This document shows positions 726-14,493 of a DNA stretch of 40,140 nt, piece by piece. The translations under genes and the position numbers were made by a program. This DNA comes from Ignavibacteriaceae bacterium (GTDB taxonomy: Bacteria > Bacteroidota > Ignavibacteria > Ignavibacteriales > Ignavibacteriaceae): assembly GCA_013359345.1 (NCBI GenBank), contig JABWCA010000016.1, positions 1-40,140 of the forward strand. The letters are read 5' to 3'. Position 1 is the first letter of the stretch; each line of letters begins with the position of its first letter. Under the pieces are notes generated by a model. It had not been told where the DNA came from, did not search any database, and saw nothing but the letters and a program-made list of their open reading frames with translations.

Positions 726-3125
726 ATGATCGGGAAAAAAGATTGGTCTGAACGGGACGTAATCACTAAACTTATTATTCCTTCTCTTAAGGATGCCGGC
801 TGGTCTGTTGAGAAGCAGATCCGTGAAGAGGTCTTTTTTACGGACGGGCGTATCCATGTAAACGGCAGCAAAGTAAAACGCGGTGAACGCAAAAGAGCCG
901 ATATCATCCTCTATTACAAACCCAACATTCCTGTTGCAATCATTGAAGTCAAAGACAATAATCACTCCTACGGTGCCGGAATTCAGCAGGCGCTGAATTA
1001 TGCTCAGATTCTTGATATACCCGTGGCTTACAGCACAAACGGTGACATGTTTCTTGAACGACTTCGTATAAAATCCGATCTGAAAATTGAAACCACATTT
1101 GCTCTCTCCCAATTTCCTTCTCCCGCCCAACTCTGGGAGAAATACAAGGAGTATAAAAACATAACCACCCCCAGACAGGAGGAAATAGCCTCTCAGGATT
1201 ATTTTTTCGATTTCAAAGGCAGAACTCCGCGATATTATCAGCAGATAGCTATTAACAGAACGGTTGAAACAATTGCACGGGGACAGAATCGGATACTCCT
1301 CGTTATGGCTACAGGAACAGGAAAAACTTACACCGCATTTCAGATTGTATGGCGCCTCTGGAAAAGCAGGGAGAAAAAACGGATACTTTTTCTTGCCGAT
1401 AGAAATGCTCTGATTGACCAGACCAAACGGGGAGATTTCAGACATTTCAAAGACAAAATGACTATAGTCAAAAAGAAGGTTATTGATCCCTCATTTGAAA
1501 TTTACCTCGCGCTGTATCAGGGACTCACGAATTATGAGGGTGAGAACGACGCTTACAGGGAATTCTCGCCTGATTTCTTTGACCTTGTAATTGTTGATGA
1601 GTGCCACAGAGGAAGTGCAGCTGAAGACAGCGCATGGCGTGAAATTCTCACTTACTTTAGCGCGGCAACACATATCGGACTTACAGCCACTCCCCGTGAA
1701 ACCGATGAAATTTCAAATATTGAATACTTCGGAGAACCTGTTTATGTCTATTCGCTTAGACAAGGTATTGATGACGGTTTTCTTGCACCCTATAAAATTC
1801 TCAGAGTGGGCCTTAATGTTGATCTTGAAGGATGGCGCCCTGAAAAGGATAAAAGAGATCTGGACGGTCTTTTAGTTGAAGACCGTGTGTATAACCAGAG
1901 TGATTATGACCGGAATCTGATCATCAGGGAAAGAACCGAAGCAGTTGCTTCAAGAATTGCAGAATTCCTCAGGAAAAGCAATCCTCTGAGTAAAACAATT
2001 GTATTTTGTGTGGATATTGAACACGCTGAACGGATGAGATCTGCGCTGGTTAATGCACTGCCTGAGGAAGTAAGTAAAAATGAAAAGTATGTAATGAGGA
2101 TAACAGGCGATGACGAAGAAGGTAAACTGCAGATTGATAATTTTATAAACCCTGAAGAAACTTATCCTGTTATTGCTACCACCTCAAAACTGATGACAAC
2201 GGGTATTGATGCACAGACCTGCCGACTGATAGTGCTTGATTCAGTGATAAAATCGATGACTGAGTTTAAACAGATTATTGGCAGGGGTACCCGAATCAAT
2301 GAGGATTTTGGTAAACACTATTTCACTATAATGGACTTCAGAAATGTCACAAATCTGTTTGCAGATCCTGCATTTGACGGTGACCCTGTAAGAGTGAAAG
2401 AAATTCCCGAAGGAGAGGAAATTCCCCCGGACGATGAACCGGATGATGAGCCGACAACTGAAACCGGAACCGGAGAAGATACAGGTACCGGGGAAGGCGA
2501 TGACTCAGGAGATGAAGAGGGTGAGGGTGATACCGGCGGCGGTGGCGGCGGTGAAGGGCGTCAGAAAGTCTACGTTGCCGGAGTTGTGGTTTCAATCCTG
2601 AATGAGCGGAGACAGTTTCTTGATCCTGATGGTAAACTTACAATTGAAACGGTCAGAGAGTACACACAGAAAAGCATCAGGTCAAAATACCGGACACTCG
2701 ATCATTTCCTGAGTGACTGGAACAGTGCTGAAAAGAAAAGAGCAGTGATTGAAGAGCTTGCAAATGAAGGAATACCGATTGATGAACTGAAGGATGAAGT
2801 AAAAAAAGATCTGGATATCTTTGACCTGATCTGCCACATAGCGTGGGATATGCCCCCTCTCACCAGAAGAGAAAGAGCAGCAAATGTCAGAAAAAGAAAT
2901 TACTTCGCAAAGTATGGCGATAAAGCAAGACATATTCTCACAGCTCTCCTTGATAAATATGCCACAGAAGGGATTGAAAATATTGAGGATCCCGGAATAC
3001 TGAGGCTCGAACCTTTCTCCTCATTTGGTACACCGGTTCAGATTATTTCCATGTTCGGGGGAAAAGAAAATTATCTCAAAGCAATTAAAGAACTTGAAAA
3101 CGAAATTTATAACACGGCAGCTTAA
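726..3125 (+). CDS. hsdR: Type I restriction enzyme, R (motor/nuclease) subunit HsdR
   Basis: This is the DNA translocase and endonuclease subunit of a type I restriction-modification complex, cleaving unmodified invading DNA after ATP-driven translocation. An N-terminal PD-(D/E)xK nuclease is visible (D59, then E74-V-K76). The superfamily 2 helicase core follows: Walker A TGTGKT (K200), DECH box (291-294), TATP (320-323) and the motif VI region QIIGRGTR (516-523). A very acidic then glycine-rich linker (about 559-611) joins the core to a helical C-terminal domain that would contact HsdM/HsdS. At 799 residues it is a compact HsdR. Its TAA stop shares one base with the hsdM ATG (TAATG), so the two are translationally coupled. 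The start ATG has only a weak upstream purine run. Family assignment is secure; DNA specificity comes from hsdS and cannot be read. Confidence 0.95.
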   Translation: MIGKKDWSERDVITKLIIPSLKDAGWSVEKQIREEVFFTDGRIHVNGSKVKRGERKRADIILYYKPNIPVAIIEVKDNNHSYGAGIQQALNYAQILDIPVAYSTNGDMFLERLRIKSDLKIETTFALSQFPSPAQLWEKYKEYKNITTPRQEEIASQDYFFDFKGRTPRYYQQIAINRTVETIARGQNRILLVMATGTGKTYTAFQIVWRLWKSREKKRILFLADRNALIDQTKRGDFRHFKDKMTIVKKKVIDPSFEIYLALYQGLTNYEGENDAYREFSPDFFDLVIVDECHRGSAAEDSAWREILTYFSAATHIGLTATPRETDEISNIEYFGEPVYVYSLRQGIDDGFLAPYKILRVGLNVDLEGWRPEKDKRDLDGLLVEDRVYNQSDYDRNLIIRERTEAVASRIAEFLRKSNPLSKTIVFCVDIEHAERMRSALVNALPEEVSKNEKYVMRITGDDEEGKLQIDNFINPEETYPVIATTSKLMTTGIDAQTCRLIVLDSVIKSMTEFKQIIGRGTRINEDFGKHYFTIMDFRNVTNLFADPAFDGDPVRVKEIPEGEEIPPDDEPDDEPTTETGTGEDTGTGEGDDSGDEEGEGDTGGGGGGEGRQKVYVAGVVVSILNERRQFLDPDGKLTIETVREYTQKSIRSKYRTLDHFLSDWNSAEKKRAVIEELANEGIPIDELKDEVKKDLDIFDLICHIAWDMPPLTRRERAANVRKRNYFAKYGDKARHILTALLDKYATEGIENIEDPGILRLEPFSSFGTPVQIISMFGGKENYLKAIKELENEIYNTAA

Positions 3126-4555
3126 TGAAAAATATCGGCAGTATAATTAAAACCCTTCAAAATATATTAAGAAAAGACCAGGGTGTATCAGGTGATGCAC
3201 AAAGAATTGAACAGCTTGGATGGATGATCACTCTTAAAATAATTGACGATAAGGATAAGGAACTTGAAATTGTAAAAGAAAATTACCGGTCTCCTATACC
3301 TGATGAACTGAAATGGAGAAACTGGGCGGAGAATCCCGAAGGAATAACGGGGGATGAACTAAAAGAGTTTATTGACAGGAAACTGTTCCCCGGATTGAAA
3401 AACCTTGAGATTCTGCCGGGTGACAGGCGGGCGCTGATAATCCGTGAAATCTTTGACGGAACAAACAACTACATGAAAAACGGCACTATCATCCGTCAGG
3501 TAGTCAACCAGCTTAATCAGATCGATTTTAACATATCTGAAGACCGTCATGTTTTTGGTGATATTTATGAAACCATTCTCCGTGACCTGCAGAGTGCGGG
3601 CAATTACGGCGAGTTTTATACCCCGAGAGCCCTGACAGAATTTGTGACTGAAATGGTGAACCCGAAACTGGGTGAAAAAATCTATGATCCTGCCTGCGGT
3701 ACCGGAGGATTCCTTACATCGGCAATTGAAAATATCAGAAAAAACGGGATCAGCAATGTTGAAGAGTTTGATACTCTTCAGGAGAATATCTTAGGGTCTG
3801 AACTTAAACCCCTTCCTTTTATGCTTGCCGTCACCAATCTGATTCTGCATGATATTGAAGTTCCAAAAATTGAATATGCAGACAGCCTCAACCGTGAGTA
3901 CACATCCATCTCTGCAAAAGACAGGGTGGACGTCATTCTTGCAAATCCACCGTTTGGCGCCACTGTTGCGGATAGCATTGAAACTAATTTCCCCCTTTCG
4001 TACCGTACAAAAGAGAGCGCAGATCTTTTTCTGGTGATGATGATCAGATATCTTAAAGACGGGGGCAGGGCTGGTATCGTTCTTCCTGACGGGTCGCTTA
4101 CGGGTGACGGTGTTAAGGAGAGAATACGTCAGCATCTTCTTGAAACCTGTAATCTCCATACCATTATCCGCCTCCCAAATTCTGTGTTTCAGCCTTATGC
4201 AAGTGTTGCCACAAATTTGTTGTTTTTCACAAAGGGTACCCCGACAACCGAAATCTGGTACCGTGAACACAAGCTACCCGAAGGCATGAAGGCCTATTCA
4301 AAAACAAAACCGATTCAGAAACATGAATTTGAACCGATCCGTGAATGGTGGAACAACCGTGAGGAAAATGAACTGTCATGGAAAGTGCCTGTTGAAACAC
4401 TTAGGGAGACAGGCTATAATCTTGATATTAAAAATCCCCACTTTCAGGAAACTGAACATGAATACACAAGTGCTGAACTGATTGAACTATTGCACCAGTC
4501 ATTCAGACGAAGTGAACAACTGCTTCTGGAGTTGAAAAGGGAGTTGGGGAATTGA
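3125..4555 (+). CDS. hsdM: Type I DNA methyltransferase, M subunit HsdM
   Basis: This is the adenine-N6 DNA methyltransferase subunit, which uses S-adenosylmethionine and works with HsdS to protect host DNA; with HsdR it completes the restriction complex. An N-terminal helical HsdM_N domain covers about residues 1-140. The SAM-binding motif I DPACGTGGF starts at D188 and the catalytic NPPF motif at N274, the usual order for N6-adenine gamma-class enzymes. The length of 476 residues is normal for the family and no break is seen. The start overlaps the hsdR stop by one base and the end overlaps the hsdS start by four, so the three subunits are encoded as one coupled transcript. Base composition is close to that of hsdR and higher in GC than the genes that follow. 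Confidence 0.96.
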   Translation: MKNIGSIIKTLQNILRKDQGVSGDAQRIEQLGWMITLKIIDDKDKELEIVKENYRSPIPDELKWRNWAENPEGITGDELKEFIDRKLFPGLKNLEILPGDRRALIIREIFDGTNNYMKNGTIIRQVVNQLNQIDFNISEDRHVFGDIYETILRDLQSAGNYGEFYTPRALTEFVTEMVNPKLGEKIYDPACGTGGFLTSAIENIRKNGISNVEEFDTLQENILGSELKPLPFMLAVTNLILHDIEVPKIEYADSLNREYTSISAKDRVDVILANPPFGATVADSIETNFPLSYRTKESADLFLVMMIRYLKDGGRAGIVLPDGSLTGDGVKERIRQHLLETCNLHTIIRLPNSVFQPYASVATNLLFFTKGTPTTEIWYREHKLPEGMKAYSKTKPIQKHEFEPIREWWNNREENELSWKVPVETLRETGYNLDIKNPHFQETEHEYTSAELIELLHQSFRRSEQLLLELKRELGN

Positions 4556-5856
4556 ATTCCATCGAACAAATTTATCGCTTGGGCGAATTGTGTGATTTTG
4601 AAAAAGGTAAAACAGGGATTGCTTCTGCGATTCCCGGAGATTATCCTTTAATTACAACAGGCCAATATCAAAAGACGGCGTCTAATTTTGACTTTGACAG
4701 TGAAGCCGTTTGTGTCCCTTTGGTATCATCAACCGGACACGGAAAGAAGTCTTTGAATTATATCCATTATATTAATGGAAAATTTGCGCTAGGTACAATT
4801 TTAGTTGCTGTTACAAGTAAAGATAAGGATGTTTTGTTACCGGAGTATTTACATATCTATCTTCTTAGAAATAAAGACAATCTTATTGTGCCACTTATGC
4901 GCGGCGCTGCAAACGTTTCTTTGTCAATTAAAGATTTAGCTAATATTGAAATTAAATTGCCTGAGATATCTGAACAGAAAAGAATTATAAAACAATCTAA
5001 AACAGTCGATGGATTTAAGAAAAAAATAACCATCGAAACGGAATTACAAGGTAATCTGCTAGCCCAACTCCGTCAATCCATTCTTCAGGAAGCAATTGAG
5101 GGAAAATTAACCGCAGAATGGCGTAAAAATAATCCTGTTATTAAAGGTGATCCTGATTATGATGCTGCCGCTCTCCTTGAGAAAATCAAAGAGGAAAAGG
5201 AACGGTTGATTAAGGAGGGGAAAATTAAACGGGAGAAACCACTCCCTCCAATTAAACCTGAAGAAATTCCGTTTCCACTTCCTGAAGGCTGGGTTTGGAC
5301 AAGACTGGGGGAGGTGGCATTAACAATTAATAGAGGTATTTCTCCATTATATTCTGGAAAAAGTTATAAGAAAATATTGAATCAAAAATGTGTGCGCTTA
5401 GGTTATTTAGACCAATCCTTTGCTAAAACCGTTGAGGACCACTGGGAACAGTCAATAGATGTTTCATTTAGAATAGCGAATTTTGATCTTTTGGTTAATT
5501 CAACCGGAGACGGAACGATTGGTAGATGTGCGATCGCAAGTATTAATGAAGAGGGATTATTGTTTGACTCACATATACTGCGTGTAAGATTTTTTACAAA
5601 CCATATATCAAGCCTTTATGTACAAATAATTAATTCAGGTTTTGTGCAAGATCAAATCAAGAAAAAAAAGCGAGCAACTACGACCAAACAAACTGAGCTT
5701 GGGGTTAATAATCTTTCCAGTTTTTTATTCCCTTTGCTTGGTTTAAAGGAAATATCACAATTAGATTTTAAACTCAACCAAATGTTTTCTGTTCTAGTCA
5801 ATTCACAAAAAGAATTACAAAAACAGATTGACGCTATTAAATTATTAAAAACATAA
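4552..5856 (+). CDS. hsdS: Type I restriction-modification specificity subunit HsdS
   Basis: HsdS recognises the bipartite DNA target and holds the two HsdM subunits. Two target-recognition domains are visible. The first covers about residues 5-145 and ends in LPEISEQKRIIKQ. A conserved helical region follows at about 150-235, including LRQSILQEAIEGKLTAEW. The second runs from about 243 (PLPEGWVWTRLGEV) to 405, with a final helix. The best start is a TTG whose first four bases (TTGA) overlap the hsdM stop, with no better in-frame ATG nearby; the protein then begins at the first recognition domain with no missing sequence. At 434 residues it is full length. The gene is visibly more AT-rich than hsdR and hsdM, as often happens when specificity genes are exchanged by recombination. 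The sequence recognised cannot be predicted by eye. Confidence 0.93.
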   Translation: MNSIEQIYRLGELCDFEKGKTGIASAIPGDYPLITTGQYQKTASNFDFDSEAVCVPLVSSTGHGKKSLNYIHYINGKFALGTILVAVTSKDKDVLLPEYLHIYLLRNKDNLIVPLMRGAANVSLSIKDLANIEIKLPEISEQKRIIKQSKTVDGFKKKITIETELQGNLLAQLRQSILQEAIEGKLTAEWRKNNPVIKGDPDYDAAALLEKIKEEKERLIKEGKIKREKPLPPIKPEEIPFPLPEGWVWTRLGEVALTINRGISPLYSGKSYKKILNQKCVRLGYLDQSFAKTVEDHWEQSIDVSFRIANFDLLVNSTGDGTIGRCAIASINEEGLLFDSHILRVRFFTNHISSLYVQIINSGFVQDQIKKKKRATTTKQTELGVNNLSSFLFPLLGLKEISQLDFKLNQMFSVLVNSQKELQKQIDAIKLLKT

Positions 5857-5868
5857 AAGTTGGTATTT

Positions 5869-7203
5869 ATGTCAAAATCTATTTTTACAATTTTGTCAGC
5901 AATTGGTGAAGGCGGTTTTGCCACAGTATATAAATGCAAATTAAGTGATACTAACACTGAATATGCTGTTAAGGTGTTACACTCTAATTCTTCAGAGGAA
6001 GACAGAAAACGCTTTATTAATGAAATAGAGTACCTTAAAATACTTAAAGATCACCAAGGTATTGTTAAATTGATAAGGGAGTGTGAACCAAATGATCAAC
6101 AACCTTGGTACATCATGGAATTAGCTGATGAAAATTTAAAGGAATATATCATCAAGAATTTTTCAAGATTAAAAAAGGGTGATTTATATGAGATTATTTT
6201 GGATATCTTGGATGCCGTTAAATTCGCTCATGATAGAGAGATTCTACACAGAGATATCTCCTATTCAAATATTCTCGTTTTTAATACTGCAACAGTAAAA
6301 AAAATTAAGGTGGCTGATTTTGGATTAGGTAAAGATCTTAATACACAGAGTGAGCTAACTAGATCAGATGAACGTGAATTGGGTCAGGCATATTTTATAT
6401 CTCCAGAGCAAAAAGTAAAACTTAAATCTGCAACAATACAAAGCGATATCTATTCGTTAGGTAAATTGATTTTATTTATTTTGACTCAAAATATCTTCGG
6501 AAATCATACCGAATTGGAATCAGCTGAACGATATCTAGTCGGAAAGGCTACACAATTTGACCCTTCTCTAAGATTTCGATCTGTTCAAGAAATGATTGAT
6601 TATCTTGAAATACTGTCGAGGCAACTAACAAATCAATGCGCACTCTGGGATAAAAGTTTGAAGAATGTTTTGAGTACCAATTTAATTTCTGTTACTGATG
6701 ATGATTTTTTTAATTTTCTCCTTCAGAATCACTCCTTAGTCAATTTCCTCGATGATTTTCTAATACCATTCTGCAATCTTGTTTTAAATACTTCATATTT
6801 AAATACAATTCCGAGTTTTGGAAGAAATAAGATCTTCATATTAATTTCTCATGTAGATAAAATGTTTGAGAATTTTTCAAGAGAACACAATTTTGACTTT
6901 AGGCAAATAGATTTAATTACAGATTGCTACATAAAAATTCTCAATTATACTGATGATTCACAAACTAAATTAATATTATTAAAACGACTATGGCGTTTTG
7001 CTTTCTTCTATAATCGTTATTATACACAAGATCTTATAAAGTTAAACTTAAATTCAAAAAACATTACATCAGAAATTGAGAATGATTTCGCCTTTTTTAT
7101 CGAAGCAAATATGAATTATAGTGGTGTTCCTGTCGTATTAAATGGGATACGTCTACCTCCCACTATAGAAAACATAATAAATAAATTTAAAGCATTGGTT
7201 TGA
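5869..7203 (+). CDS. Eukaryotic-like Ser/Thr protein kinase in the R-M operon
   Basis: The N-terminal half (about 1-260, counted from the ATG at 5869) is a Hanks-type kinase: glycine loop GEGGFATVY (13-21), ATP lysine K35 in AVKVL, catalytic HRD (127-129) with N134, DFG (150-152) and SPEQ in place of APE. The usual lysine after HRD is serine (HRDISYSN). The C-terminal half (about 265-444) is an AT-rich, mostly helical unknown domain with no obvious membrane segment. An upstream in-frame TTG at 5860 would add three residues; ATG 5869 is preferred. It begins 12 bases after hsdS and ends 7 bases before the next gene, so it is probably co-transcribed with the R-M genes. Such kinases act in some phage-defence systems, for example Stk2 and PglW; here a role as sensor or effector is inference. 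Substrate unknown. Confidence 0.88.
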   Translation: MSKSIFTILSAIGEGGFATVYKCKLSDTNTEYAVKVLHSNSSEEDRKRFINEIEYLKILKDHQGIVKLIRECEPNDQQPWYIMELADENLKEYIIKNFSRLKKGDLYEIILDILDAVKFAHDREILHRDISYSNILVFNTATVKKIKVADFGLGKDLNTQSELTRSDERELGQAYFISPEQKVKLKSATIQSDIYSLGKLILFILTQNIFGNHTELESAERYLVGKATQFDPSLRFRSVQEMIDYLEILSRQLTNQCALWDKSLKNVLSTNLISVTDDDFFNFLLQNHSLVNFLDDFLIPFCNLVLNTSYLNTIPSFGRNKIFILISHVDKMFENFSREHNFDFRQIDLITDCYIKILNYTDDSQTKLILLKRLWRFAFFYNRYYTQDLIKLNLNSKNITSEIENDFAFFIEANMNYSGVPVVLNGIRLPPTIENIINKFKALV

Positions 7204-7210
7204 TCTAAAT

Positions 7211-7978
7211 ATGAAAGATGATGAAATAAAATATCTAATTGAGGCCAAGGTCAAGGAAGCAGAGCTTGCAACTTCCGAAAAGCGGATTAATTACATTCTA
7301 TTGATTGCTGGTGTCTTTGTAACTGTATTTGGTGTTGTTTTACCACTTTTGTTCGCTATATCAAACAATGATAAGGTAGATCAGGCAGTTGAACGGCTGA
7401 ATATGGAAATTAAGGAGTTACAAAAAAGTAATCAGGAATTTGTTATTCAATCACTTGATCGTACTGACAAGTTACAAGAAAAACAAATGGCGCAGTATGA
7501 AAAATATGAAGAAATTCTAAACGCAAAAAGCAGGGAGTTGGATGAAAAATTTAATCAACTGGCTGGGAACCAACTCAGAAAACCAAAATTAGTTTGCAAC
7601 GTGAAAGGTACAAGTGAAAATGGGATTTTAATATTAGGAGAGAATGAGAGACCCTCCATTGAAATCAGGAATGTTGGAGATAAAATTGCCAATGATGTCA
7701 AGTTTAAAATATATTTTAAGGAAGAGGATGGATACGATATATTAGGGGAAATGATGAGACGATTGAGTTCTTATGATGAGCCTTTATACAATCGTTCATA
7801 TATTGATGACCGATTATTTTCAATTGCTCCGAAGGAATCCATATATTTTTCATTTACTCAAAATCGGACTCCAAACCTCTTAGTCGAAGTACCTGTTCTG
7901 ATCAAAGTATATTATGATGAGCCTGAACCGTTAAGATATTCATTCGTTATTAAATACATTGAAAGTAAAATAAATTGA
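7211..7978 (+). CDS. Membrane-anchored coiled-coil protein with C-terminal beta domain
   Basis: I do not recognise a named family. A short charged N-terminus (1-26) is followed by one hydrophobic segment (about 27-50). Residues about 55-120 are rich in E, K, Q and L with heptad spacing and should form a coiled coil. The C-terminal region (about 125-255) contains IEIRNVGDKIANDVKFKIYF, a pattern seen in small Ig-like or CARDB-like beta sandwiches. The gene lies 7 bases after the kinase and 7 bases before the next membrane protein, so the three appear to be one functional unit. The topology suggests an oligomeric membrane anchor or sensor partner for the kinase. That role is inferred only from position and architecture. 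Confidence 0.8.
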   Translation: MKDDEIKYLIEAKVKEAELATSEKRINYILLIAGVFVTVFGVVLPLLFAISNNDKVDQAVERLNMEIKELQKSNQEFVIQSLDRTDKLQEKQMAQYEKYEEILNAKSRELDEKFNQLAGNQLRKPKLVCNVKGTSENGILILGENERPSIEIRNVGDKIANDVKFKIYFKEEDGYDILGEMMRRLSSYDEPLYNRSYIDDRLFSIAPKESIYFSFTQNRTPNLLVEVPVLIKVYYDEPEPLRYSFVIKYIESKIN

Positions 7979-7985
7979 GATTTAT

Positions 7986-8306
7986 ATGGAAAAAATCGTA
8001 ATAATAATCGGAGTGATACTCGGAATTTCAATCATGGTATTATTTATAAAGCAGCTTCAATTTTTTCTTGCGGCAAACAAAACATTTGAAAAGATACTTG
8101 CCAGGCAGGATATAATGATAAATCTGTTATTAGATATCAGAGACAAAAGCAGAAGATATTCTGATAAGGATATAAGCAAAATTTTGTCTGGTGGGGATGT
8201 GGCTTCCCAGAATGAAAGTGAATCACTCAAATATATTTGCGACAACTGTGAAAAAGAAGTTTCAAAAGATGCGGTAAAATGTCCTCATTGCGGAGAAAAG
8301 TTGTAG
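7986..8306 (+). CDS. Small membrane protein with C-terminal zinc ribbon
   Basis: The protein has 106 residues. An N-terminal transmembrane helix (about 4-28) is followed by a helical charged stretch, then a C-terminal zinc ribbon with two Cys pairs (CDNC and CPHC) of the zinc-ribbon type that usually folds as an independent domain. It is the last gene of the tightly spaced series running from hsdR, and 248 bases without a gene follow it. Zinc ribbons at the end of single-pass membrane proteins often bind proteins or nucleic acids. What this one binds is unknown. A functional link to the kinase and coiled-coil protein is inferred from the 7-base spacing. Confidence 0.8.
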   Translation: MEKIVIIIGVILGISIMVLFIKQLQFFLAANKTFEKILARQDIMINLLLDIRDKSRRYSDKDISKILSGGDVASQNESESLKYICDNCEKEVSKDAVKCPHCGEKL

Positions 8307-8554
8307 AGCTAATGGGGAACGAACCCACAACTTTCTGATTAGTAATTTTTCATGTCTACTTTTATGAGTATATAGTTTTGTATTAGAATATTTCAAGACT
8401 CAGGAACGTTTTGATTTAAAATTGCACTATAGTTGTTTTATTAAGTTTACATGATTACTGTCTGACATTTATAATACATGACTGTCATTAAGTATTTTGA
8501 TAAGTTTATAACCAAGTGATAATTTCTTGAAATGATAACCGAAAATAAAATACC
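8307..8554. other. AT-rich gap between the kinase module and the Abi-like gene
   Basis: This 248-base intergenic stretch has no credible reading frame and no clear T-tailed hairpin. It is long enough to hold a separate promoter for the Abi-like gene, though no convincing -35/-10 pair could be identified. Confidence 0.6.
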
Positions 8555-9481
8555 ATGCCTAACCAAATAACCTTAAGAACTCGTCGTAAAATTGCAGATG
8601 CTTTAAAGGTAAAAAGACTATATTACAGTGGGGGTTTAGATGAGCCATCATTTTTATCTCGTTTGTATAACCTTTCTGAAATGACTTCAAACGACCATCG
8701 CTTCAAAAATGCTCACGGCGATATACATAAACACACGGTTCTGAACACTGATTGGAATTTGGACTGGGTGTTCTATGATGATAGATTCAATCTTCTGCAT
8801 TGCCCGGATGAAAAATATTTGACGTTTTTATCAGAAACTTTACATCCTGCGGTTCAAACAGATGATGACAGAATGGAAGAACTACTTTCTATCTACAATT
8901 CTGAGTTAAAAAGTGATGGTTATGAGATTTTGCAAGTTTCGGAAATGTCCGGTATGCCAATATTTGAAGGAAGGAGAATTCAACCAGGGGCTCAGAAGGT
9001 TTTTCAACAGCAAGTTGTTATTAAACAATATTTAAATACTTCATACATTGAACAAAAAATCAAAATAATTAATGATTCACTCGAGAATAATACAGATTTA
9101 GCGATCGGCTTAGCGAAAGAATTAATTGAAACAGTTTGTAAATCAATATTAAAAGGGAAGAATGTTCCATTTGAGAAAGATTGGGATGTCCTTAAATTAA
9201 TTAAAGAAACAAATACTGTGATTAATTTTAAAAATACAGATTTACATGATCCGGATGGAGCAGAAAAATCCATCAAAATGATATTGGGAGGAATAAGTGC
9301 GATTGTACATGGGGTTGCAGAATTGAGAAATGCTTATGGTACCGGTCATGGAAAAGAAGCAAATTTTAAAATGCTTGAGCCAAAGTATGCTAAACTAATT
9401 GTTGGATTAGTTCATGACCTTATTCTTTTTTATTTATCGTTTCTCGGTGAAGGAACAGAAGTGATTGATGATAAAAGTTAA
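8555..9481 (+). CDS. Abortive-infection family protein (AbiJ-type N-terminus, Abi_C C-terminus)
   Basis: The N-terminal region (about 1-140) has the pattern of the AbiJ N-terminal domain 3 family: TRRKIADAL near the start, FLSRLYNL, HGDIHKH, DWVFYDDRFNLL and FLSETLHPAVQ. The C-terminal part (about 175-305) matches the Abi_C domain: paired helices with LAIGLAKELIETVCKSIL, then the characteristic ELRNAYGTGHG and a hydrophobic final helix. Proteins with this architecture are linked to abortive infection, where an infected cell stops growth before phage release; Abi_C has been discussed as a possible RNA-binding or HEPN-like helical domain. The biochemical activity here is not visible. It follows the R-M and kinase genes after 248 bases, and the right boundary repeats begin about 120 bases after its stop. 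It looks full length. Confidence 0.82.
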   Translation: MPNQITLRTRRKIADALKVKRLYYSGGLDEPSFLSRLYNLSEMTSNDHRFKNAHGDIHKHTVLNTDWNLDWVFYDDRFNLLHCPDEKYLTFLSETLHPAVQTDDDRMEELLSIYNSELKSDGYEILQVSEMSGMPIFEGRRIQPGAQKVFQQQVVIKQYLNTSYIEQKIKIINDSLENNTDLAIGLAKELIETVCKSILKGKNVPFEKDWDVLKLIKETNTVINFKNTDLHDPDGAEKSIKMILGGISAIVHGVAELRNAYGTGHGKEANFKMLEPKYAKLIVGLVHDLILFYLSFLGEGTEVIDDKS

Positions 9482-9674: not shown

Positions 9675-9699
9675 CCTGTGTTTTCCCGGCGGCATCTGT

Positions 9700-10076
9700 C
9701 AGGGATGCGATGCTCGCATCCCGTGAAAAATCACAGAATCTCCCGTAAGCACCAACTTCACATAAAAGCACAACTGCCGATCCTTTCTTGCCGTTGGTTT
9801 TAACCCTACGACGTTGCCAGCCTGTCCGCCCGTGGCGGATCGCCCGTTACCAGCCTGTCCGCCCGTGGCGGATTGCCAGCAGCCTGTCCGCCCGTGGCGG
9901 ATTGCTCGTTTCAGCTCAAATGTACCGACATGAATGTCGGCGTTACAGTCTGGCACATGTAATTCTATTTTATCATGATTGAGATTATTGCAGGTTATTT
10001 TGCAGCTCAAATGTTCCGCCAATCCCGGGAAACCGGGAGGCGTTACAGTTATTGCAGTGTTTTTCATTTTATACCA
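9700..10076 (+). repeat. Right copy of flanking repeat (inverted relative to 31-266)
   Basis: The reverse complement of this segment matches the left flank, as described for 31-266. It contains three copies of a 23-bp unit (9818-9840, 9851-9873, 9880-9902) whose core TCCGCCCGTGGCGGA is a hairpin. It also has two versions of a block that runs from ACTGTAACGCC through a small hairpin to ACATTTGAGCTG on the minus strand, where the left flank has one. The minus-strand reading frame of 122 codons across it is low-complexity repeat translation and is not called as a gene. Confidence 0.8.
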
Positions 10077-10119
10077 GGTACGAAGCTTTTATCTGGCTAG
10101 TAATCCTGCGATTCAATTT

Positions 10120-10177
10120 GTGAAATTGGCGGGAAGAAAAAAACGGGTGTGAAATTGGCGGGAAGAAAAAAACGGGT
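10120..10177. repeat. Two perfect 29-bp tandem repeats
   Basis: A 29-bp unit beginning GTGAAATTGGCGGGAAG occupies 10120-10148 and is repeated exactly at 10149-10177. It lies just outside the right boundary of the defence island. No reading frame or recognisable site spans it. Confidence 0.9.
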
Positions 10178-10463
10178 GCAGGTTAAGTTTAAAGAAGTGG
10201 ATTTATAAGTTCTTGTATCAGATTAGTTGATAAGCATCCTCTGTTATGCGGAGTAATAATCTTATTCTGATAAATTTAATTAGTGTTATTAGTGAAATTC
10301 GTGTGTCCAAAGTTTTTAAGTTCAAAGTGCGAGGTTCAAAGTTCGATGTTCGAAGTTCAAGGATGGATCCATACAATCATACAATCATACAATCTCCGCC
10401 GGGGCGGACAATCATACAATCATACCTTTTCATTCTGTCTCCAAAGGGGCGGAGAATCAAAAC
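10178..10463. other. Repeat-rich gap downstream of the P450 operon
   Basis: This stretch holds no credible gene. It carries low-complexity runs: GTTCAAAGT/GTTCGA variants at about 10318-10362 and repeated ACAATCATAC units at about 10370-10430. These are interrupted by TCCGCCGGGGCGGA, a small hairpin that could help end transcription from the minus-strand operon. Confidence 0.5.
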
Positions 10464-11681
10464 TCATAACTTCTGAAACGTCATTTTATAGAACCCGATA
10501 TCACGGTTCATAAATCCAAGCTGCATCATTATCATGCCAAGTTTCTGGATTCTGTATGTCTCCTCGCTGCACTTATCGAGAATTGCGGGGTATAGCTGTT
10601 CCAGCCGCTCTATCCATTTTTTTGATGTGTACTGATACCCGGAGGTGACATCATCATAAACAGTGAGCTTAAAACCTGCTTTGTTTGCGGCATTGAGTAT
10701 CACCTCAGGATGTACGAGCTCATAATCAGGCATGAAGTATTTTCTTCCGAAAGCACTGGGCTCAATTTTTTTGCCGGGGTAGCCGGTTATGGTGAGGAGA
10801 AACAGTTTGCCTCCGGGATTCAGTAGATAATGGCAGATACTGAAAAATCCGGGGATGTTTTCTTTGCTGACATGATGAAGCATCTCAATGCTGGAGATTC
10901 TGTCAAATGCTGAGTCGCGGGACAGATCGCGGTAATCTGACAGCTTTACGGTGATGTTATTCTGAAGACCTGCCGCCGCAACTCTCCGGGAAGCAAATTC
11001 AGCCTGCTCTTTGCTGAGGGTCACTCCGGTTCCATGAACACCGAAGTTTTCTGCCGCGTAAATCAGGAAGCTGCCCCAGCCGCATCCGATATCAAGCAGG
11101 GTCATTTCACGCCTGAGATCAAGATCTGAACATATTGTGTTTAACTTCTCCTCCTGTGCCTTATCAAGATCAGTGATCTCATCTGTTGCGAAAGTCCCCG
11201 AATAAACCATTCTCTTATCAAGCCATGAAGCAAAAAAATCATTAGAAATATCATAGTGGCTTGCTACAGCTTCACGGTCACGTTCAACTGAGCCGGGTTT
11301 TTTTGTGCTGAAAAACCCCTTTGCGGTATCAATAGTTTTAGATAATATAACCTTTGTGCCCGCTGAAAAGAGTTTCATTCTGCTGAACTGAGAGAGATCA
11401 GCATGCCGGGTGCGGTCTGCCACTTTTATCAGATGTTCATAATCGCCCTGAAAATCGAAAACATTAAAGATATAGCCTTCAGTGAGGCTGAGCTCATCAG
11501 GGGGAATAATGATATCCCGGAATTTCCGCTCGTCATTAATCACCACTGTAATTACGGGTTCCTCTCCGGGCTTAATATCCGTAACCGACCCGTCACTGAA
11601 CCTGAATCTGATGTTTTTTTCAGAAAGCGGCTGCAGTGTGAGTTTTAAAAGATCGCTTAAAGATGAAATCAGATCATTCAT
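10464..11681 (-). CDS. CFA-synthase-family SAM-dependent methyltransferase
   Basis: The fold and motifs are those of cyclopropane-fatty-acyl-phospholipid synthases: HYDISNDFF (142-150), the SAM-binding LDIGCGWGS (196-204) and GVTLSKEQ. The family transfers a methyl group to double bonds of membrane lipid acyl chains. Residues that hold the carbonate ion in E. coli Cfa appear changed here: YSCAY is YSGTF, FEHVG is LHHVS and LLHTIG is LLTITG. A classic cyclopropanation is therefore doubtful, and another SAM-dependent methylation is possible. At 405 residues it is typical in length, including the N-terminal domain. Its start overlaps the stop of the upstream P450 by four bases (ATGA), so the two are translationally coupled. 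Family confident; reaction uncertain. Confidence 0.85.
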   Translation of the reverse strand: MNDLISSLSDLLKLTLQPLSEKNIRFRFSDGSVTDIKPGEEPVITVVINDERKFRDIIIPPDELSLTEGYIFNVFDFQGDYEHLIKVADRTRHADLSQFSRMKLFSAGTKVILSKTIDTAKGFFSTKKPGSVERDREAVASHYDISNDFFASWLDKRMVYSGTFATDEITDLDKAQEEKLNTICSDLDLRREMTLLDIGCGWGSFLIYAAENFGVHGTGVTLSKEQAEFASRRVAAAGLQNNITVKLSDYRDLSRDSAFDRISSIEMLHHVSKENIPGFFSICHYLLNPGGKLFLLTITGYPGKKIEPSAFGRKYFMPDYELVHPEVILNAANKAGFKLTVYDDVTSGYQYTSKKWIERLEQLYPAILDKCSEETYRIQKLGMIMMQLGFMNRDIGFYKMTFQKL

Positions 11682-13027
11682 TTTCTCTCCCTGATTATTG
11701 CTTTTAAGGGTTTATCCGCTTTAAGGCCTATTCCGCTGGTAAAACCTGTTATCTTTTTATTTCTGAATTCAATCCTGAATTTCGGTAAAAGATATGCCAG
11801 TGAATATATAAGCTGAAAATTAGCAAGTGAGTTGCCGATACACACATGGGGGCCATTGCCAAAGGGGATATAATCAAATCTGGTTGTTTCAGAATTTTCC
11901 TCTTTCTCAAAACGTTCCGGATAAAAATCATCGGGATTATCCCAGTATTCAGGATTCCGGTGCATTAAAAAAGGGGAGATAAAAATCCATGAATTGGCAG
12001 GTATATGATAACTGCCGGCTTCAAAATCTTCTGTGCTGATTCTGTGGAAGACCCATGCCGGGGGATAAAGGCGCAAAGTCTCTTTTATCACCATTTTTGA
12101 GTATTCAAGCCGGGTGACATTCTGATAGTCGGGAACTCCGGTTGAGGCAATTTCAGACAATACTTTTTCTTCAATGCCCGGATTTACCGAAACTGAATAA
12201 ATCAGCCACGTCAGTGCAGATGCAGTGGTGTCATAACCAGCAAAAATAATATTCTTCATTTCGGTGATTATATCTTCACGCGATATCCTCCCCTCAAAAA
12301 ACTCATTGAGGAGAATATTCAGATAGGTGCCGCACTCTTCAGGGTTATTAATTGCCCAATCGAGTATCCCGGCTGTAAATTTATCTATGACCCTGCCGGC
12401 TTCAAGAATCTCCTCTCTGCTTTTGTCTTTCATTCCCGATATTCTGAGATACTGTTTCTTCACGACTCTGAATGTGTGCTGCGGTATGCCGGGATATGCG
12501 AGAATTTTATTGAGTGCCTGAATAACAGGTTCAGTATCTGCGCTGATTTTACCGGCAAAAAGGTTTCTTATTGTGGCGCTGAAAAGCATTTTCTGAAATT
12601 CTGCCTCGGGTTCAAACGGGGTTCCCCCGGATGCAAATTCCTGAAATTTCAGAGTGGTTTTCTGCAGTTCTTCTTTCAGTACATTTTCAAGTTTATGGAA
12701 AATGCTGCTGTGAAATGCGGGCTTAAGCAGTCTTCTTCTTACCGACCACAACTCATGTTCAGAGGCAAAAATACCGTTACCGAGCAGGAATTTAATCTCG
12801 TCAAGAGTTCTCCCTCTGGGGAATTTAATATAATCGGTCTTCAGAATCTGCCTGATAATCTCTTTGTCATTAATTATATAAGAATAGTTGCCGGCAATTC
12901 CGAGTTTAATTACCGGACCGTATTTTTTGCAGACTGCATTAAGTTTCACCACCGGATTCAGTAACAAACCGGGGAGCATAATGATAAAACCGAAAGGGGA
13001 GGGCCCGGGCGGCGCTTTAAGACTCAC
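11678..13027 (-). CDS. Cytochrome P450 (downstream copy)
   Basis: This is a heme-thiolate monooxygenase, inserting oxygen into an unidentified hydrophobic substrate with electrons from a redox partner not encoded here. The heme-binding loop FGNGPHVCIGN carries the axial cysteine C396. The K-helix ExxR is E316/R319 (KETLRLYPP), and the I-helix oxygen-activation motif is AGYDTT (263-268). There is no N-terminal membrane anchor; the protein starts MSLKAPPGP, the proline-rich hinge typical of soluble bacterial P450s. It resembles the neighbouring P450 along its whole length, with C396, E316 and R319 at identical positions, so they are tandem duplicates. The coupled methyltransferase downstream suggests that both act on a lipid or fatty-acid-derived compound; this is inference. 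Confidence 0.93.
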   Translation of the reverse strand: MSLKAPPGPSPFGFIIMLPGLLLNPVVKLNAVCKKYGPVIKLGIAGNYSYIINDKEIIRQILKTDYIKFPRGRTLDEIKFLLGNGIFASEHELWSVRRRLLKPAFHSSIFHKLENVLKEELQKTTLKFQEFASGGTPFEPEAEFQKMLFSATIRNLFAGKISADTEPVIQALNKILAYPGIPQHTFRVVKKQYLRISGMKDKSREEILEAGRVIDKFTAGILDWAINNPEECGTYLNILLNEFFEGRISREDIITEMKNIIFAGYDTTASALTWLIYSVSVNPGIEEKVLSEIASTGVPDYQNVTRLEYSKMVIKETLRLYPPAWVFHRISTEDFEAGSYHIPANSWIFISPFLMHRNPEYWDNPDDFYPERFEKEENSETTRFDYIPFGNGPHVCIGNSLANFQLIYSLAYLLPKFRIEFRNKKITGFTSGIGLKADKPLKAIIRERK

Positions 13028-13146: not shown

Positions 13147-14493
13147 TCAGACCTTTCTGACCTGCGCCATCACCGGTTTTGATGACCTTATGATTATTCC
13201 CGAAACAAGGCGGGGCGGCTTTTTATCAGCAAATGTAAAATTATATTCAGGCACAAGGGAGGCAATCATGTAAAGAAGCTCAAAATTTGCGATCCCGTTG
13301 CCTATGCAGACGTGCGGCCCGTTACCGAAAGGGATGTATTCAAATCTGATTCCCTGGGATCTTTCTTCATCATTGAACCTCCCGGGATTGAACTCTTCAG
13401 GATTATTCCAGAAGAGGCTGCTTCGGTGTATGAGCCAGGGTGAAATAAAAAGCCATGAGTTAACCGGAAGGGTGTATCCCGAGAGTACCGATTCAGCAGT
13501 GGTGATTCTGTGAAAAGCCCATGCAGGCGGGAACAGTCTGAGAGTCTCCTTAACCACGTTCTGTGTGTATGGAAGCCTGAAAACATTTTTATAATCGGGT
13601 GGTTCTTTTCCTTCGACTTCCTCTCTTGTTTTCATCAGGATGCCGGGGTGATTAAATATTGAAAAGAATGACCATGTGAGAGCTTCGGCAGTTGTGTCAA
13701 ACCCCGCAAAGATAATATTTTTCATTTCGTCAACTACCTGCCGGCGGGGGATTCTGCCGGCCTGTGCTTCGTTAATCAGTATGTTCAGGAAAGTGCCGCA
13801 TTGCTCCGGGTAATTATACACATTATTCAGGATGCGGTTAACTAAATCTTCAATAACCTGACCAGCGCGGAGAATTTTTGCCGGAGTACGGTATTTTTTT
13901 CCGAGTGAAGAATACAGAGTCTTTTTAATAATGGTCATTGTATGCGAACCAAAACTTGCGTAGCCTGTTATGATATCAAGCGCTTCAATTATTTCATCCG
14001 GATCTGCTTTAATATCACCGCTGAACAGATTTCTGACTGTTATCCTGAACATCAGCCTTTTCATCATCCGCTCAAAATCAAACGACTCTCCGGTGGCCGC
14101 AAATCTGTCAAGTTGTTCTCTGAGGGCAGTAAGCTCATCTCTGATTACTTTTTCAAGCAGGGGAAAGGCTTCGCTGTGGAAAGCGGGCTTAATCAGTTTT
14201 CTTTGAGTCGACCAGATTTCATGGTCGGCTGCAAAAAGTCCTTCACCGAGAAGAAATCTCACATCATCCAGTGTTTTTCCGCGGGGGAATCTGAGATAAT
14301 CAGATTTGAGTATTTCTTTTAGTGCAGAGGCATCATTTACAAGATACACCCGGTCATTTCCAAACCCCAGCCTCACAAATGAACCATATTTCTCACAAAT
14401 TCTGTTAAGAGTGGTAAGAGGATCATACAGCAAACCCGGGAAGTACATCAGGAACTCTGATGCCGAGGGACCGGGGGGAGTTTTAAGGGACAT
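13147..14493 (-). CDS. Cytochrome P450 (upstream copy)
   Basis: This is a second cytochrome P450 monooxygenase of 448 residues. The heme loop FGNGPHVCIGNG has C396, the ExxR motif is E316/R319 (KETLRLFPP), and the I-helix reads AGFDTTAE near 263-270. It starts MSLKTPPGP like its neighbour, and long stretches align, such as FPRGKTLDDVRFLLGEGLFA against the corresponding part of the other copy. It is the first gene of the minus-strand operon; 119 bases without a gene separate it from the next P450. Transcription should start in the 140-base gap at 14494-14633, which it shares with the divergent STAS gene. Substrate and redox partner are unknown. Confidence 0.93.
   Translation of the reverse strand: MSLKTPPGPSASEFLMYFPGLLYDPLTTLNRICEKYGSFVRLGFGNDRVYLVNDASALKEILKSDYLRFPRGKTLDDVRFLLGEGLFAADHEIWSTQRKLIKPAFHSEAFPLLEKVIRDELTALREQLDRFAATGESFDFERMMKRLMFRITVRNLFSGDIKADPDEIIEALDIITGYASFGSHTMTIIKKTLYSSLGKKYRTPAKILRAGQVIEDLVNRILNNVYNYPEQCGTFLNILINEAQAGRIPRRQVVDEMKNIIFAGFDTTAEALTWSFFSIFNHPGILMKTREEVEGKEPPDYKNVFRLPYTQNVVKETLRLFPPAWAFHRITTAESVLSGYTLPVNSWLFISPWLIHRSSLFWNNPEEFNPGRFNDEERSQGIRFEYIPFGNGPHVCIGNGIANFELLYMIASLVPEYNFTFADKKPPRLVSGIIIRSSKPVMAQVRKV

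Follow-up and report, generated by a model that had tools for sequence, protein, structure and literature searches.

Which reaction is catalysed by a CFA synthase homologue that has lost side chains holding the bicarbonate in E. coli Cfa, and what might the two cytochromes P450 encoded next to it contribute? The question arises from a locus on contig JABWCA010000016.1 of an Ignavibacteriaceae bacterium. We analysed a stretch of 40,140 nucleotides of this contig (the window), in which three neighbouring genes are read from the minus strand:

10464-11681, minus strand: CMAS-family methyltransferase, HH variant, 405 aa (open reading frame, PF02353 match and clade membership)
11678-13027, minus strand: cytochrome P450, the partner gene (PF00067, 236 bits; haem motif FGNGPHVCIG)
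13147-14493, minus strand: second P450 of the same type, a tandem duplicate 48% identical to the first (PF00067 and motifs)

The reading frame of the methyltransferase is intact over its 405 codons. Its product matches PF02353, the Pfam CMAS profile, with 221 bits against a curated cut-off of 27, which places it in the CMAS family. The same profile is matched at E 0.001 or better by 10/10 members, included in the profile set, of the group of genes to which the window gene belongs (the HH clade, see below). An N-terminal DUF7884 domain was found in nine of these ten, the window protein lying narrowly over the Pfam threshold. The scores of the window protein stay far below the curated cut-offs of the NCBIfam models for true CFA synthases, PRK11705 (202 vs. 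400 bits) and CfaB (216 vs. 650 bits). The original prediction of an intact SAM site was borne out. The motif is complete in the context LLDIGCGWG, and GCGWG is invariant across the alignment of HH-clade members:

11073-11087, minus strand: SAM-binding motif GCGWG, residues 199-203 (from the sequence)

The side-chain ligands of bicarbonate in E. coli Cfa are given as Glu239, His266, and Tyr317 in passages of PMC11387697. We mapped the corresponding positions with MAFFT, aligning the window protein with E. coli Cfa (from the K-12 genome) and about 100 relatives:

11196-11198, minus strand: Gly162, at E. coli Cfa Cys139 (alignment)
10884-10886, minus strand: Glu266, a new carboxylate, at Gly236 (alignment)
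10875-10877, minus strand: His269, at Glu239 (alignment and profile)
10872-10874, minus strand: His270, at His240, kept (alignment)
10794-10796, minus strand: Leu296, at His266 (MAFFT and profile; Thr297 is the next codon, 10791-10793)
10635-10637, minus strand: Tyr349, at Tyr317, kept (alignment)

Cys139, Glu239, and His266 had been predicted to correspond to Gly, His, and Thr. The first two assignments agree with the alignment (Gly162 and His269, the latter being His in 12/12 clade members). At the third position the imidazole is gone in every alignment, but the column holds Leu296, not Thr297. Thr297 appears there only in pairwise alignments of the window protein with E. coli or Aquifex Cfa, through a one-residue gap; Leu296 is found in the pairwise alignment with CmaA1, in the MAFFT alignment with E. 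coli Cfa, and in a ten-member subfamily profile compared with 5z9o and 6bqc. The column is Ile in three HH-clade members and Leu in the others. In the HH clade Glu239 is absent in 12/12 members, His266 is absent in 12/12, and Tyr317 is present in 12/12. The earlier account of the site was thus right that two side-chain ligands are gone, and it overlooked the retained Tyr317 and His240 and the G236E change. The return of acidic, His, and Cys residues to the site had been named as evidence against that account, and half of this was observed: the clade gains Glu at 236 and His at 239, so the pocket appears to have been rebuilt, not emptied. Loss of Cys139 carries little diagnostic weight, because three of the 12 members keep Cys, and Ser stands in this column in two rows whose site is otherwise of the ordinary GEHH type.

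Relatives were searched in the window's family f1 (80 genomes), order (164), class (391 sampled), and phylum (395 sampled). Matches at E 1e-60 or better were present in 84 of the 391 class genomes (note that below 243 bits the site residues were read for only a minority of matches). The HH clade comprises 12 genes in 12 genomes (the window gene, L113-L121, L153, and L154), which score at least 544 bits with the clade profile, against 417-482 bits for the nearest ordinary synthases. The set of E239H, H266L/I, and G236E occurs in 12/12 clade members and in 0/106 other aligned relatives, and for this reason is not due to chance. A 100-row tree, computed without the seven site columns, splits off the twelve genes by one branch with support of 100 and nests them inside ordinary CFA synthases. 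The tree was built by a quick method with SH-aLRT support from 100 of the 118 aligned rows, near-copies being omitted. Ten loci with mis-called (wrong frame or strand) or short reading frames were excluded from the 118-row alignment (L013-L016, L020, L023, L025, L026, L029, and L093). L165, outside the alignment and read from its translation only, has an ordinary site.

The window gene is a member of this subfamily, not a lone decayed copy. Its branch is the longest of the clade (1.31) and some clade-wide residues are missing from it (e.g., REHY is replaced by TSGY), as might be expected of a decaying, non-catalytic Cfa copy. Such decay is nevertheless very improbable, as 12 genes of 12 genomes agree in their site residues, have a complete SAM motif, and have been kept together with a P450.

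The substitutions are linked to one another. Within the 118-row alignment Glu236 is present in 22/22 rows without His266 and in 1/96 rows with His266. Of the 22 rows, 12 belong to the HH clade, seven to a Glu236/Gln266 clade, and three to a second Gln266 group; HH rows and Gln266 rows are separate in the tree, and the three labels require three changes. The coupling of Glu236 to loss of His266 is consistent with a built-in carboxylate replacing the ion. Phe286, present in 104 of the 106 other relatives, is Met in 11/12 HH-clade members, and Gly289 is Tyr in 11/12. Judged from these substitutions, a protein carboxylate may stand in for the ion and the acceptor channel may have been rebuilt. The third group without His266 (L167-L169) carries Glu236, Glu239, His240, and Gln266 and lies on a long branch.

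The coupling to two P450s proposed for the locus was also found. Both genes lie directly upstream of the methyltransferase on the same strand, the first overlapping its start by 4 nt, and 10/12 clade members have a P450 as their immediate neighbour on the same strand. The P450 precedes the methyltransferase in nine of these, with gaps of -14 to +6 nt; the order is reversed in L154, where the two genes are 12 nt apart. The flanks of the pair differ, with at least six surroundings (the window, G053/G054, G056, G058/G059, G074-G076, and G358), and no constant neighbour other than the P450 was found across the HH loci examined. The matching P450 of G001 sits on a separate contig; in G342 the P450 runs off a contig end and the methyltransferase begins another contig. 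Subgroups of P450 and methyltransferase match across the two trees, including the split cases G001 and G342, and in family f1 this type of P450 is present in 10/10 genomes with the methyltransferase gene vs. 6/70 without it. It was detected in 0/9 genomes carrying the nearest ordinary synthases. The haem motif FxxGxxxCxG and the I-helix motif AGxDT are complete in 12/12 complete P450s checked, both window copies included. G342 belongs to the same class as the window but has another family and order code, yet both halves of its pair (L200, L153), apparently split by a contig break, are nearest to G058/G059, which suggests that the pair may have been transferred as a unit. Among the loci read, the tandem P450 duplication beside the methyltransferase was seen in the window only.

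On the other side of the methyltransferase, positions 726-9481 of the window form a defence island with type I restriction enzyme, methylase, and specificity genes, an Stk2/PD-T4-6-like kinase, a 255-aa protein, and an AbiJ-like gene. The 255-aa protein (7211-7978, between the kinase and the AbiJ-like gene) gave no Pfam or PADLOC match. Short tandem repeats occupy 9812-10178 and 10318-10394 (periods of 29-33, 14-21, and 8), in the interval that separates the methyltransferase from the defence genes; an open reading frame at 9699-10067 that overlaps some of them is probably not a gene.

The nature of the P450s could point away from lipids. Their nearest solved structure is the plant carotenoid hydroxylase CYP97A3 (256 bits by profile), as would fit a small-molecule pathway, e.g., a carotenoid or terpenoid one, in which the P450 would hydroxylate a ring and the HH enzyme would act as O-methyltransferase. 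CYP3A, CYP4B1, CYP46A1, and CYP102 score close behind, so the CYP97A3 match says little, and no other biosynthetic gene is constant near the pair. Around the P450 paralogs of G032 and G009, no biosynthetic genes were recognised. The 80 f1 genomes mostly have two adjacent PF00494 (SQS_PSY) genes. A third copy was counted by eye in 7/10 pair-bearing vs. 24/70 other genomes (Fisher p 0.04, relatedness ignored). G059 (99% complete) and G056 (89% complete) carry the pair, yet their SQS_PSY genes number only two; these are adjacent and of the squalene type. We consider a small-molecule pathway improbable. A carotenoid link as a requirement, suggested by the CYP97 match, was rejected since the third PF00494 copy is absent in G059 and G056.

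An AlphaFold2 model of the window protein (mean pLDDT 85.7) was compared with solved structures; the comparisons (VIA, Foldseek) refer to aligned ranges. Model residues 7-405 matched full-length Aquifex Cfa (7qos) with Z 38.5 (341 aligned, rmsd 2.9) and E. coli Cfa with Z 34.4 (328 aligned, rmsd 3.5). Plant N-methyltransferases and AtmM gave Z of about 29-31 (CNMT 30.2; AtmM, 6uv6, 29.2). The modelled fold is thus near both CFA synthases and small-molecule O- and N-methyltransferases, and a shared fold shows no function. The retained CFA-type N-terminal domain speaks for, not against, a membrane lipid as substrate. Compared with Cfa (6bqc, 5z9o, 7qos), the HH clade shares the fold over residues 7-405, the SAM motif, the N-domain, Tyr317, and His240; it differs in E239H, H266L/I, G236E, the altered F286 and G289, and the adjacent P450.

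Two kinds of enzyme outside the CFA synthases resemble the HH clade in part. RebM/AtmM-type O-methyltransferases have a similar fold by comparison with our model, and RebM has a His pair (His140/141) in its catalytic loop. Enzymes of this type are not known to have a lipid N-domain, and the Asp partner in the active site of RebM is matched by Leu or Ile in the HH clade. The plant enzymes CNMT, PavNMT, and TNMT (6gkv, 5kn4, 6p3m) have a CFA-like fold without bicarbonate chemistry, and we take their Glu204, Glu207, and His208 to be equivalent to Cfa columns 236, 239, and 240. These three are the loop residues named for plant N-methyltransferases in passages of PMC6730481. The plant proteins differ in their identity of only ~16-20%, their alkaloid amine substrates, and a Glu in place of the first His of the HH clade.

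Could the HH enzymes still form cyclopropanes? Other CMAS genes of at least 100 bits were found in 0/10 genomes with the HH gene vs. 27/70 other f1 genomes, so the HH gene could fill the Cfa role, and Tyr317, His240, and the N-domain are all kept. Glu266 or His269 would then act as the base, and the substrate of the P450 would be either the chain that bears the ring or an unrelated lipid. Mutations of the bicarbonate ligands lower Cfa activity, however, in experiments described in part of PMC11387697, the channel motif is altered in 11/12 members at both F286 (to Met) and G289 (to Tyr), and a constant P450 partner is unexpected for plain ring formation. Persisting cyclopropanation is the less likely outcome, and we regard it as unlikely.

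The second carbonate-less CMAS clade bears on the choice between the remaining reactions. Its seven rows (L092, L100, L104-L107, and L122:10019-11284) have Glu236, Glu239, Ala240, and Gln266 at the site. The L122 protein, from G057 of the same family group as the window, is 60% identical to the L106 protein, which comes from an Ignavibacteriota record. The clade adjoins DUF1365 in 7/7 loci and an FAD amine-oxidase-like gene in 6/7 (the reference locus L122 included in both counts), the layout found in the furan fatty acid operon ufaD-ufaO. Pairing of a carbonate-less relative with an oxidative enzyme is thus seen in more than one clade. The ufaD-ufaO operon of R. palustris also contains ufaM, and its CFA-like enzyme performs C-methylation coupled to oxygen chemistry on phospholipid chains, according to sections of PMC7380195. 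The partners there are DUF1365 and the FAD oxidase, whereas the HH clade has a P450. UfaO-like DUF1365 and UfaD-like FAD oxidase genes were found beside 0/11 HH loci outside the window by BLAST at E 1e-8; the window's own flanks carry P450s in their place.

These operons lend weight to C-methylation without ring closure, in which a phospholipid acyl double bond would be methylated and the cation would lose a different proton to give a branched alkene. The P450 would oxygenate the product or prepare the substrate (compare UfaM acting before UfaD and UfaO). The family acts on double bonds, and its seven-row subgroup with Glu236 and without His266 has neighbours like those of ufaD-ufaO. The neighbours in question are missing from the 11 HH loci tested, and the likeness to UfaM rests on operon layout, not on the site residues (Glu236/Gln266) of UfaM. 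BfaB and TmpB also count against this reading. These 10-methylene-forming enzymes were chosen for their kept bicarbonate-site residues, a feature that the HH clade does not share, and like the HH pair they consist of a CFA-family methyltransferase with an oxidoreductase in a two-gene unit, the partner being a flavoprotein there and a P450 in the HH clade (PMC7791843, in part). Since BfaB and TmpB methylate with these residues in place, site loss alone cannot tell C- from O-methylation, and it is no general marker of plain methylation. On balance we regard C-methylation without ring closure as possible, though less likely than not.

We tentatively prefer, at somewhat less than even confidence, a membrane-lipid methyltransferase with a rebuilt bicarbonate site that makes a methoxy lipid together with the P450. 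The side chains of Glu266, His269, His270, and Tyr349 would replace bicarbonate, which would no longer be bound, and the methyltransferase and the adjacent P450 would work on the same lipid. The P450 would first oxygenate the acyl chain (or another membrane lipid). The hydroxyl thus formed would then be methylated by the methyltransferase, His269 serving as base, to yield the methoxy lipid. Methylation of a P450-made hydroxyl in this manner is the simplest coupling of the two enzymes, and we slightly favour it over C-methylation without ring closure. Several points count against the methoxy lipid. Tyr317 and His240 are kept, so the ion could still bind in the altered pocket, and no acidic partner for His269 is conserved at column 266, which is Leu or Ile. 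In mycobacteria, the methoxymycolate synthase MmaA3 retains the ordinary site and is an O-methyltransferase, which means that O-methylation does not require the site change. The other carbonate-less subgroup, in its furan-fatty-acid-like operons, by analogy favours C-methylation.

In a literature search no description of such a P450-methyltransferase pair was recognised, most subscription journals being outside its scope. The pair probably oxygenates and methylates a lipid by a route so far undescribed. The need of Cfa for bicarbonate, and the choice between methylation and ring closure, are today probed mainly with Cfa mutants; nature seems to have run this experiment in the HH and Glu236/Gln266 clades, where one and the same change arose and persisted. 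We suggest, with some reserve, that a bicarbonate-dependent CFA synthase may have become a bicarbonate-free lipid methylase at least twice, through the linked G236E and loss of His266 and each time with an oxidative partner, and that the P450-methyltransferase pair of the window may represent a new two-enzyme route by which a membrane lipid is both oxygenated and methylated (to a methoxy or branched-oxygenated acyl chain). Should the products indeed be chains of either kind, they would be membrane lipids not yet reported, and their genes would already be known.
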